NCBI GenBank assembly: GCA_034928305.1
Contig: JAYFOZ010000002.1
Location: 558,001 to 622,000, forward strand
Direction of reading: 5' to 3'
DNA from: Methanomassiliicoccaceae archaeon
GTDB lineage: Archaea; Thermoplasmatota; Thermoplasmata; Methanomassiliicoccales; Methanomethylophilaceae
Length of the DNA: 64,000 nt
The position numbers were made by a program, and so were the translations under genes. The notes under the pieces are model-generated. The model saw only the letters and a list, made by a program, of their open reading frames with translations, ran no database searches and was not told the origin of the DNA. Positions 51,031-56,221 of the stretch are shown here, in pieces (within the stretch, counting starts at the first letter, position 1; every line of letters starts with the position of its first letter).

Positions 51031-52038
51031 TCAGTCCATTGCCGAATTTATTGCGAGTTCGGACAGGTCCATCGAGTACTCGGCCATACGCCTAAGGCTC
51101 CCGGCGATCATACTGGAGGACGTGCCTCCGTTCTGGTCCAGATTGGCGGCCATCCTCGAAAGCAGTTCGGTGCGCTTGACAAGGCGGGTGCTCTCCTCGA
51201 TGCACTTGTTGGCCATAATCACGTCTTTGTTCAGCCAATTGATGACAGATGTGGATATCTGCTCGCACACTTCCCTTCCGATCGAAACGATTTCTTTGAC
51301 TATTTCAGCGGTGCCGGGTTCCGCAAGTAGGATATCCAGATTCTTGGCGACCAAAAGAGTGTGGTCGCCTATGCGTTCAAGTGCCCTGCTGGCCGTATTG
51401 CTTCTGGTGATCTCGCAAAGGTTCGAGCTTATCTTGCGTGCAAGGGAGAACTCCTTCTGATAGATGTTGACCTGGCGCGAGATGAGCCAATCGATACGGT
51501 CTATCTCTCTGTCCTTGTCTACCAGGCCCTCATATATGTTCTTCCTCTTGGCCTCGGCATCGTCAAGAACGTCCGTCAGAAGGTTTTTTATAAGCACCCG
51601 GAGGCGCTCTATCGATTTGGCGGGACGCATCTCTGTCTGGTCCATAAGGTCCTTTATCAGAATCCTGTTGTCGCTCTCGTCCATGATCTCGAGGCCTATG
51701 GCGGTCTGCGTGAACGAGGAAGCGACTCCGGCAACAAGACTGGATATCTGCCCGGACGACTTCAGTTCGATCGCACTGTGACCGGCTATATATGAGCCCA
51801 CCAATAATCTATAGAGATAATCTCTGTCGTTTATAGTGTCTACATCGATTGTCTTGATCGTCCGTTCAGCTGTCTTACGTGTACCTTGGGGATAGATGAC
51901 TATGCTGCCGTCCGGTTGACCCTGAAGGCTGACGGAGTCGTTTTTCTTAAGTCCTACGGAATCGGCCCAATCCTTGGGCAGCGTAACCATGAAAGATGAT
52001 CCGCCAGTGATCTGAATGCGTCTTATATCCACGAGCAT
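51031..52038 (-). CDS. AbrB-PhoU phosphate regulator
   Basis: A 335-residue archaeal-type PhoU protein. Residues 1-45 are a SpoVT/AbrB-like swapped-hairpin domain (RRIQITGGSSFMVTLPKDWADSVG) that may bind DNA. Two PhoU helical bundles follow (about 95-210 and 215-335) with typical acidic and Arg-rich segments (RALERIGDHTLLVAKNL near 250). ATG 52038 is chosen because a TATA-like GATATAGATAAG lies about 31 bp upstream, giving a leaderless transcript. It is divergent from the pst operon and probably controls it. Confidence 0.88.
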   Translation of the reverse strand: MLVDIRRIQITGGSSFMVTLPKDWADSVGLKKNDSVSLQGQPDGSIVIYPQGTRKTAERTIKTIDVDTINDRDYLYRLLVGSYIAGHSAIELKSSGQISSLVAGVASSFTQTAIGLEIMDESDNRILIKDLMDQTEMRPAKSIERLRVLIKNLLTDVLDDAEAKRKNIYEGLVDKDREIDRIDWLISRQVNIYQKEFSLARKISSNLCEITRSNTASRALERIGDHTLLVAKNLDILLAEPGTAEIVKEIVSIGREVCEQISTSVINWLNKDVIMANKCIEESTRLVKRTELLSRMAANLDQNGGTSSSMIAGSLRRMAEYSMDLSELAINSAMD

Positions 52039-52067
52039 ACTAAAGATACATCTAGATTTAAGCTTAT

Positions 52068-52104
52068 CTATATCAATATGTATATTTCTATATTGCATAT
52101 ATAG
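52068..52104. repeat. AT-rich dyad over the regulator promoter
   Basis: CTATAT-CAATAT (52068-52079) and ATATTG-CAT-ATATAG (52090-52104) form interrupted inverted arms. They overlap the predicted TATA box of the AbrB-PhoU gene and that of the candidate small RNA. It is a possible operator. Confidence 0.45.
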
Positions 52105-52367: not shown

Positions 52368-53273
52368 TTGGAAGGCAAAACAATAGCACTTATGACAACC
52401 TTTTTAATTATCGGAGCCGGGATCGGCATCGGTGCCGGTTACTTCGTATGGGGGTCGGACGGAAACAACGGCTCCGAAATGGAGAACATAGCACTCAGCG
52501 TAGACGGCGTGGTGCCGTCTGCCGAGACGGTCCAGGACGGTACATACACGATCTATAGGGACCTTATCCTTGCAACGAATGGAGCGCCCACCGGCCTGGC
52601 CCAGGATTTCATAGAGTGGATCCTAAGCGCGGAAGGGCAGGCTATAGTCTCTGAGGAAGGATTCGTCGAGCTCACCGAGGGAGAGTACACGGCCATGAGC
52701 CCCGCCCCGAGCGGAACACTCAATGTCGCCGGTTCGACCACTGTCCAGCCGATGATGGTCAAATTCGTCGAGGCATATGAAGCCAAGTACCCCGGTGTGG
52801 AGATCAACGTCACCGGCGGAGGGTCAGGAGCAGGTGCAACGGCAGCCATTAACGGAACCGCAGACATAGGGATGCTCTCGAGGGACCTTAAGTCCTCCTC
52901 CCCCTCCGAGTCCGCGTTGACAGCCACGACGATCGCCAAGGACGGAGTCATAATCGTCGTAGACAAGGCCGCCGGCGTGACCGACCTGACCACCAACCAG
53001 ATCGCCAAGATCTTCAACGGCGAATACACAAACTGGAACCAAGTCGGAGGAAATGACCTCAATATCGCCCCCATAATAAGGGAGGACGGATCCGGAACCA
53101 GGGAGACGTTCGACACCAAGATGGTCGAGTCGCTCGGCATAACCGTCAGCGAATTCGGTCAGAACATGATGGGATACTCTGCCACTAACTCGACCGGCGC
53201 TATGCTTGCGCTCTGCAAGAGCATCGGCGGGTCCATCGGGTATGTCAACCTCGGCAGTCTGTCCGAGCTGTGA
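52368..53273 (+). CDS. pstS: Phosphate-binding protein PstS, circularly permuted and membrane anchored
   Basis: A 301-residue phosphate-binding protein with rearranged order. Residues 5-27 are a membrane anchor with no lipobox. Residues about 44-105 (VDGVVPSAETVQDGTYTIYR, then PTGLAQDFIEWILSAEGQ and EEGFVEL) match the C-terminal end of normal PstS. From about 116, GTLNVAGSTTVQPMM begins the normal N-terminal part. The phosphate-site motifs GSTTVQ, SGAGATAA, DIGMLSRDL and EDGSGTRETF follow in order. The protein ends at IGYVNLGSLSEL, exactly where the moved segment would usually follow. Start is TTG 52368 with a GTGAGG site; ATG 52392 is possible. Phosphate binding is likely kept. Confidence 0.9.
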   Translation: MEGKTIALMTTFLIIGAGIGIGAGYFVWGSDGNNGSEMENIALSVDGVVPSAETVQDGTYTIYRDLILATNGAPTGLAQDFIEWILSAEGQAIVSEEGFVELTEGEYTAMSPAPSGTLNVAGSTTVQPMMVKFVEAYEAKYPGVEINVTGGGSGAGATAAINGTADIGMLSRDLKSSSPSESALTATTIAKDGVIIVVDKAAGVTDLTTNQIAKIFNGEYTNWNQVGGNDLNIAPIIREDGSGTRETFDTKMVESLGITVSEFGQNMMGYSATNSTGAMLALCKSIGGSIGYVNLGSLSEL

Positions 53274-53387: not shown

Positions 53388-55448
53388 ATGGCTTCCAGCA
53401 ATATGGCGTTCAGGTTCGAAGAGGTCGAAAAGACCGGAACGGGTTTTGAAACCCCCGACGGTAAAGGCAGGAGCATAACGACCCGTCGCTTCAATCCGGA
53501 CGCCATACCTAAACTTGTTTTGGCAGCCACGGCCGTCTCGGCCGTGGTCATAGTATTTTTTATAATAATCTACATCGCGGGCCTAAGCCTGCCGGCTTTT
53601 AGGGAAGTCGGCATATGGGAATTCGTTTCTGGAGATTTGTGGTATCCGAGCCAGGGATACTACGGGGCGCTTCCGCTGATCACAGGTACGGTATTGGTGA
53701 CGGCCGGGTCCATATTGTTCGCGGTCCCCCTGGGCGTAGGAGCTGCGATCTACCTTTCGGAGATAGCTTCGGAGAAGGTCAGAAACATATTGAAACCTGT
53801 ATGCGAAGTATTTGCGGGAATACCCAGCATTGTTTACGGATTTTTTGGAATGGTCGTCCTTTGCCCGTTCCTTTTAAATCTTTTCCCTGACCAGTTGATG
53901 TATTCTACATCCTGGATCGCAGGATCGATACTTTTGGGAATCATGGCACTCCCCACGGTCATATCTGTATCCGAAGATGCCATCCGCGCTGTGCCCGTCT
54001 CATATCGCCGCGCTTCCCTGGCGATGGGAGCCACCGGATGGGAGACCACCACCAAGGTCGTTCTTCCGGCCGCATCTTCCGGAGTTATCGCCGCGGTGAT
54101 ACTGGGTATCGGAAGGGCAATGGGCGAGACCATGGCAGTGATAATGGTCACAGGCAACTCACCTATCATCCCGGACCCCATTTTCAACATATTTTCCAAC
54201 ATCAGGACGCTGACGGCCACCATTGCATTGGAAATGCCCGAAGTGGCCTATAACAGCATTCACTATTCTTCGTTGTTCGCCGTCGCAATTCTGTTGCTTA
54301 TTTCGGTAATAATCGTAAATCTCACTGCGAACGCGATCGGAAGAAGGACGAAGAGGAAACTCGGTATAATCAAAGCCTCGGAACATTCTTTCGACCTTAA
54401 GAGCATGATAATCCGCAGGATCGACGCCGAGACCCTTAGAACGATACACAGATTGAAGCCGCTCATAAAAATGGTATTCAAGGCCGCGGTATTGTTCATG
54501 TTGGCCTCGATGATGCTCTCCCTGTTCTTCGCGAACAATCTGGCACTGATAATCGGCGGCCTTGTCGCCATAGGATATGTCCTGATATCGAAAGGGATGA
54601 AATATGTCAGTTCCACCGACAAACAAACGGCGGCGCACGCGTCACTTAAGTTACTAATGGTCTTTGTGCTGATATTGCTGGCGATCATAATCGGGGATAT
54701 CTTGATTAAGGGCCTTCCGGCGATCTCCACCGATTTCATCTTCGGAATGCCCAGCGATTCAGGGCGCGCCGGGGGCATCTGGCCCGCGATCACCGGTACC
54801 CTCGAGCTTCTGACATTCACCGCATTGATCGCACTGCCCATGGGCATCGGCGCGGGAATCTATCTGTCCCAGTATGCACGCGAAAACAAGTTCACACACA
54901 CCGTCCGTAACGCGGTAGACGCCCTAAACGGGACCCCGTCCATAGTTTTCGGACTTTTCGGTATGTCCGCCCTTGTGATGGCTCTCGGATGGGGCTACTC
55001 CGTGATCGCCGGCTCGGTCACTTTGGCGTTCATGATATTGCCGGTTATAATCAAGACCACCGAGCAGGCCGTCTCAGCCGTGCCCAAGAGCCTCATAGAA
55101 GCATCCATGGCAATGGGTTCCAGCAAATGGCAGGCGATCTACAAGGTCGTCCTTCCTGCGGCCTTAGGAGGGGTCATCACGGGAATAATCCTGAGCCTGG
55201 GGCGCGCCGCGGGAGAGACCGCGCCGATCATGTTCACCGCTGCGGTGGCATTCAAATCCCAGGTGTCGTTTTCACTTTTCGAACCTGTCATGGCCCTGCC
55301 ATACCACCTTTATTTCCTGGCAGGCGAGGTCACAGGTTCCACTACCAACCAGTACGGCACCGCGGTCGTGCTTTTGGGCATCGTCCTTTCGATGTTCCTG
55401 TTGGCATCGCTGATCAGATATCATTACTCTAAAAACACAAAATGGTGA
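53388..55448 (+). CDS. Phosphate ABC transporter permease, PstC-PstA fusion
   Basis: A 686-residue fusion of the two permeases. Residues about 40-325 are PstC-like, with the coupling-helix EAA motif in the segment [23 protein letters not shown] near 210. A linker and extra helices follow, about 325-420. Residues about 420-686 are PstA-like, with [21 protein letters not shown] near 565. The order PstC then PstA matches the usual operon, so the fusion replaces two genes. ATG 53388 has a GAGGT site 6 nt upstream. About twelve or more helices are expected. Confidence 0.92.
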
Positions 55449-56221
55449 TCATATTGAACGAAGATACAGATCTGGCTATGAATGTTAAGAACCTTAGCCT
55501 GTGGTACGGAAAAAACCAGGCGATATTCGACGTCTCGATGCCGATAAGGAGGAACAAGATCACAGCTCTCATCGGCCCCTCCGGATGCGGCAAGTCGACA
55601 CTGATACGGGTTTTCAACAGAATGAACGACCTGGTCGACGGATGCAGGGTGGAGGGACTTGTGGAATACAACGGGCAGAACATCTACGCGCCCGAGGCCA
55701 ACGTGCTGGATGTAAGGGCGCAGATCGGAATGATCTTCCAGAGCCCCAATCCCTTCCCGATGACCATAAGGGACAACATAACGTATGGACCCAAGATTCA
55801 CGGCATAAGGGACGAGAGGAAGCTCGACAAGATCGTGGAGGAATCGCTTAAGAAAGCGGCTTTGTGGGACGAGGTCAAGGACCGGCTGAGCACATATGCC
55901 ATGAAACTGTCCGGGGGCCAGCAGCAGAGGCTGTGCATCGCCCGCGCACTGTCGATCAATCCGGATGTTCTTCTCATGGACGAACCGACCTCCGCCCTGG
56001 ACCCGTTGGCCACGAAGAAGATCGAGGAACTGGCCGTCCAGCTTGCAAAAGAATACACCGTGGTCATCGTGACCCACAATATGCAACAGGCGATGCGCAT
56101 CGCCGACTACACCGCGTTCATGTACATGGGCGAACTCGCGGAGTTCGGCGAGACCGCGCAGATATTCAACGACCCCAAGAACGAGCTTACAAAGAACTAC
56201 GTGCACGGCGTCTTCAGCTGA
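55442..56221 (+). CDS. pstB: Phosphate ABC transporter ATPase PstB
   Basis: A 259-residue ABC ATPase that drives phosphate import. Walker A is GPSGCGKST (near 44), the Q loop is [12 protein letters not shown] (near 98), the signature is LSGGQQQRL (near 158) and Walker B is [12 protein letters not shown] (near 178), with the switch histidine in VTHNM. ATG 55442 overlaps the pstCA stop. A TTG at 55454 right after GGTGATC is an attractive alternative start (MNEDTDL). It is the last gene of the pst operon. Confidence 0.95.

Follow-up and report, generated by a model that had tools for sequence, protein, structure and literature searches.

A circularly permuted phosphate-binding protein PstS in a Methanomassiliicoccales archaeon, with a probable origin by tandem duplication and loss

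The pstS gene found in the window (the whole 64,000-nt stretch of archaeal DNA analysed here) encodes a natural circular permutant of PstS, in which the four segments of the protein are arranged in the order C-A-B-D. We divided PstS into segments A (GSTT...SRDL), B, D (RxDGSGTR...IGYV) and C (VDGV...EGQxIV), which in canonical proteins follow one another as A-B-D-C. Taken as a whole, the data are best explained by an anchored phosphate-binding component of a Pst importer whose segment order was permuted through tandem duplication followed by loss, a reading to which we give a probability of about 0.88. The features of the locus are collected in Table 1.

Table 1. Features of the permuted pstS locus, in window coordinates
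Feature	Position	Strand	Basis
Divergent PhoU-type regulator, N-terminal MazE/AbrB-like domain	51031..52098	-	ORF list, domain profiles
Permuted pstS CDS, order C-A-B-D, 301 aa, TTG start	52368..53273	+	ORF, segment HMMs, PF12849
N-terminal membrane anchor, hydrophobic, residues ~5-28	52380..52451	+	Sequence; low pLDDT at 1-35
Segment C (residues 40-104), C-terminal part of canonical PstS, first here	52485..52679	+	phmmer, segment HMMs, PF12849
New C-A junction linker (residues 105-115), differs among relatives	52680..52712	+	Comparison with relatives
Segment A (residues 116-176), where canonical PstS begins; carries ligand motifs GSTT, GGGSGAG and SRD	52713..52895	+	Segment HMMs, alignment
Segment B (residues 177-226), one lobe crossing inside	52896..53045	+	Segment HMMs, model, alignment
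Segment D (residues 227-300) with ligand motif RxDGSGTR; closes with IGYVNLGSLSE at old D-C loop	53046..53267	+	Segment HMMs, alignment
PstC-PstA permease fusion, 686-aa single ORF, two BPD_transp_1 stretches	53388..55448	+	ORF list, domain profiles
PstB ATPase	55442..56221	+	ORF list, domain profiles

The order of the segments was read from iterated segment HMMs, which place C at residues ~43-100, ahead of A, B and D; with segment E-values of 4e-19 to 4e-29, a chance arrangement is excluded. Two independent profiles or searches agree with this order. The PF12849 (PBP_like_2) profile matches in two pieces within one frame, its positions 209-267 upstream of its positions 5-208, and phmmer against the solved PstS of PDB 4q8r aligns query residues 116-295 to chain positions 4-175 and residues 42-102 to positions 184-245. 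Each PstS segment is thus present once, cyclically shifted, in a single chain, as the earlier note on this DNA had proposed when it described the last segment as standing first, after a membrane anchor. No PstS remnant was seen 3' of the stop codon, where the HMMs returned only sub-threshold noise, again as noted before, and a profile search of the 98.9%-complete genome gave no second PstS-family match, canonical forms included. Judged by its sequence, the protein belongs to the PstS superfamily (PF12849, E=1.1e-43; TIGR02136, E=5.2e-52), though it lacks the canonical A-B-D-C order and stays below the curated NCBIfam cut-off for TIGR02136 (176.9 vs 206.6 bits). Its best stretch spans only positions 40-222 of that profile, as expected from the permuted order; profile-based annotation therefore underscores permuted proteins such as this one.

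The neighbourhood is that of a PstS gene, with pstC, pstA, pstB and phoU all at hand, and the arrangement of a divergent phoU-like gene followed by pstS, the pstC-pstA fusion and pstB is kept in relatives. The MazE/AbrB-type domain of the PhoU homologue is of a DNA-binding type, and this protein is likely to be a local regulator.

The permuted gene is real. The earlier note had proposed a search for homologues of the same order, and three congeneric genomes from separate assemblies encode full-length C-A-B-D proteins (87, 76 and 76% identity). A canonical gene scrambled by misassembly could be imagined, since many of the genomes are of the MAG type, in which tandem genes and other repeats could collapse; however, the congeneric assemblies come from separate projects and share both the order and the full-length ORF, the flanking genes are conserved, and the permuted order is also present in other genera whose genomes form one contig (G035, G048). 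We regard such an artefact as practically discounted. The gene is under purifying selection, with dN/dS values against the three congeners of 0.22, 0.18 and 0.16 for the whole of pstS and of 0.28, 0.14 and 0.10 for the moved segment, and most likely it is functional.

An AlphaFold run supplied with 31 permuted relatives yielded pLDDT values mostly of 90-98 from residue 40 on and a pTM of 0.79, the anchor region (residues 1-35) being low. The best Foldseek match of this model was PDB 4h1x (189 columns, 2.4 A); canonical PstS structures were matched over ~180-200 columns, the nearest ones at 2.5-3.8 A. Foldseek aligns sequentially, so that no single target is able to span a permutant. Judging from these lengths and from the phmmer alignments, the 189 columns probably represent the C-A-B part shared with 4h1x, and the ~180-200 columns the A-B-D part shared with canonical PstS; jointly, the two kinds of match would place every segment as in PstS. 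The protein is accordingly predicted to form one confident domain pair with the usual two-lobe fold, the same three-dimensional fold as PstS, although the model may lean on solved relatives, 4h1x among them. A single domain pair had been supposed from the sequence before, and the matches speak against the refuting condition named then, an N-terminal segment that fails to complete the fold. The further supposition that the moved segment completes domain I holds for the part after residue 67, whereas residues ~40-67 map to domain II in the alignment to E. coli PstS. With the domain limits of the E. coli protein, which we take to be 1-84 and 258-321 for one domain and 85-257 for the other, the lobe crossings fall near residues 199/200 and 67/68 of the window protein. 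With this mapping, lobe II would contain the cut as well as the new anchor site, leaving lobe I continuous and both crossings in place. The idea of a single crossing in the permuted protein was dropped, as the mapping to E. coli PstS keeps both.

Seven ligand residues are identical to those of E. coli PstS in the alignment (T124=T10, S153=S38, R238=R135, D240=D137, S242=S139, G243=G140 and T244=T141). The phosphate site, which the earlier note had taken to be intact, is so at these positions; it departs from the E. coli site at D56, which aligns to S171. The SR motif at S171 also occurs in canonical relatives, so this substitution is not due to the permutation. One might take the serine as a hint that the protein has left phosphate transport and been repurposed as a sensor or as a binder of another oxyanion. 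We consider this very unlikely, given that the Pst operon context is retained, that the GSTT, GGGSGAG and RxDGSGTR motifs are held in common with PstS of the phosphate-bound 4gd5 type, that the gene is under purifying selection and that it is the sole PstS in its genome. From its family and its operon, the permuted PstS probably binds phosphate.

A search of 147 Methanomassiliicoccales genomes, in which most PstS loci were retrieved and classified, places this protein among a variety of forms. The classified loci include ~56 canonical ABDC proteins, ~24 C-A-B-D permuted proteins (one partial) from 10 genera, five tandem canonical fusions (ABDC-ABDC, open frames of 581-615 aa) and five tandem permuted fusions (CABD-CABD, 557-588 aa). 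Between the two copies, DNA identity is 70-79% in the tandem canonical forms and 87-100% in the tandem permuted ones. In L009 (genome G020), one of the latter, which lies in a genome assembled as one contig, the two copies do not differ over 741 nt, pointing to recent duplication or gene conversion.

These forms suggest a route. According to this model, an anchored PstS would have been duplicated in frame to give a tandem ABDC-ABDC protein, and C-A-B-D would have remained once the leading ABD and the trailing C were lost. The product would retain the usual two-lobe flytrap, with lobe I unbroken and both crossings in place, and its N-terminal anchor would now be attached at the D-C loop in lobe II instead of at lobe I; it would bind phosphate and pass it to the PstCA fusion. 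Within this archaeal order the tandem state recurs in both registers, and PstS has changed its segment order several times. The permutants of families f2 and f6 carry what duplication followed by trimming predicts: the old D-C loop (KIVxLKKxSSSPAYSPL; for example KIVTLKKDSSSPAYSPL) stands directly after the anchor, and the old C-tail motif LPSDVLExQRAKL (LPADVLATERSKL; canonical counterpart LPSDVLEQQRAKL) is found inside the C-A junction. In the genus of the window this junction is too divergent to display the old C-tail directly. The duplication-then-loss origin proposed in the earlier note thus gains support from the tandem fusions in relatives and from the old C-tail at distant C-A junctions.

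Fission of the gene and re-fusion of its two pieces, without a tandem-duplicated fusion, would be expected to lead to the same final order, and no tandem canonical form was found among the classified loci of the window's own family, f1; for this reason we infer the f1 route from what is seen in f2 and in the tandem permuted forms. Fission and re-fusion nevertheless seem quite unlikely to us: the classified loci include no split halves, tandem fusions are present in both registers, the f2/f6 junctions retain old C-tail sequence, and the anchor region, with the start region TL(E/D)xK, is common to the window protein and canonical relatives.

How often the order has changed was read from maximum-likelihood trees of the segments put in one register. 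In family f1 the permuted proteins are polyphyletic, with five order changes, and the window's genus (g1), g4 together with g6, and g12 stand separately. A single clade of f1 permutants is rejected (AU p 1.3e-5), also with segments A-B-D only and long branches dropped (p 4.7e-6). AU p-values presuppose groups fixed before any tree is inspected; the main groups were named by trait, whereas the subset uniting g1 with g4/g6 was picked with the tree already known, so that its rejection (p 0.006, and 0.0017 in the reduced data set) is indicative. In families f2 and f6 there are two order changes, and one clade is rejected (AU p 1.0e-5) because a canonical protein, L125 (G056), falls within the permuted group. 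Another canonical protein, L093 (G110), is nested among the permuted proteins of g4/g6. In their sequence trees both look like reversions to the canonical order. Several order switches are needed, and a single origin is rejected in each of the two main groups.

A single ancient permutation per family, inherited vertically and reverted repeatedly via the tandem state, would accommodate these two nested canonical proteins, and tandem forms allow either direction. Such a history appears unlikely, as canonical proteins are spread along the base of the outgroup-rooted f1 tree and the permuted groups are not united by any common junction sequence. We lean, with some reserve, towards repeated switching of register in both directions in Methanomassiliicoccales PstS, with independent C-A-B-D forms arising at one hot-spot loop, reversions, and tandems in both registers. 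Tethering is perhaps the driver; an anchor moved to lobe II, away from lobe I, might conceivably bring a benefit.

Natural circular permutations are usually visible as two end states only. In this small archaeal order the gene is found, at one and the same locus, in canonical, tandem, permuted and tandem-permuted versions and probably also in reverted ones; existing sequences therefore allow tests of the path, its direction and its selective reason. If true, repeated two-way switching would document permutation by duplication in nature with unusual completeness.

Canonical PstS (TIGR02136/PF12849; PDB 4q8r, 4gd5, 1twy) likewise has the four segments, the ligand motifs, the two-lobe type II fold (predicted in our case) and the Pst operon. 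It differs in its A-B-D-C order and in an anchor on lobe I, whereas that of the window protein is probably on lobe II. The earlier note knew of no described PstS of this kind, which is partly wrong: the nearest structure match, 4h1x (S. pneumoniae PstS 2, SP_2084), is also a permuted PstS with C before A. In 4h1x and its D-C-A-B relatives, however, the cut lies between B and D, and in the window protein between D and C, making this a different permutation. No structure with the C-A-B-D order was among the solved structures found, and no published description of a permuted PstS was found in the open literature searched (subscription papers lying outside the search).

In another family, the glucose-binding ABC protein TpMglB-2 (Tp0684) of Treponema pallidum is naturally circularly permuted and keeps its binding, and its authors, too, bring up tethering as a reason (PMC4990184). 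Unlike the window protein, which matches only PstS/LysR-type (type II) proteins, TpMglB-2 has a type I sugar-binding fold, and its permutation adds a fourth lobe crossing. Permutation by duplication has been described for saposin/swaposin and for DNA methyltransferases, and the model predicts tandem fusion intermediates (PMC3320104). To that same model, Methanomassiliicoccales PstS adds coexisting likely intermediates together with both end states, repeated switches and a shared cut. What looks new, and was not found described, is that one order combines tandem forms with repeated switches and probable reversions. Compared with what had been claimed, the protein by itself is less novel and the history of its family more interesting.

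Among the matches listed from outside Methanomassiliicoccales, where sampling was limited, no single C-A-B-D protein was confirmed. Long matches resembling this order in two bacterial phyla proved to be other forms: that in G587 is a single D-C-A-B protein, and that in G805 is a tandem ABDC-ABDC. The latter (L179), whose phylum is that of the Chloroflexaceae locus L045, is a 603-aa tandem canonical fusion outside the archaea. Proteins of the D-C-A-B order (among them L039-L042, L046 and L145-L156) come from Bacillota, from a single genome of L045's phylum and from a second Thermoplasmatota family; those of this last family (f31, L145-L156) are of the pneumococcal PstS2 type and adjoin pst genes. 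PDB 9l8j (Synechocystis Sll0540), matched by sequence and by structure, refers in its title to an evolutionary hotspot in a putative phosphate-binding protein.

A third order, B-D-C-A, is seen in one genus, in a PstS-like domain of two open frames, L142 (G120:C150, amino acids ~341-604) and L143 (G119:C125, ~365-629). No signal precedes this domain, a multi-TM region follows it, and it equals the middle slice of the tandem CABD-CABD PstS that both genomes also encode. The SGTR motif is kept and the SRD motif lost, and this domain may perhaps be a PstS-derived sensor.
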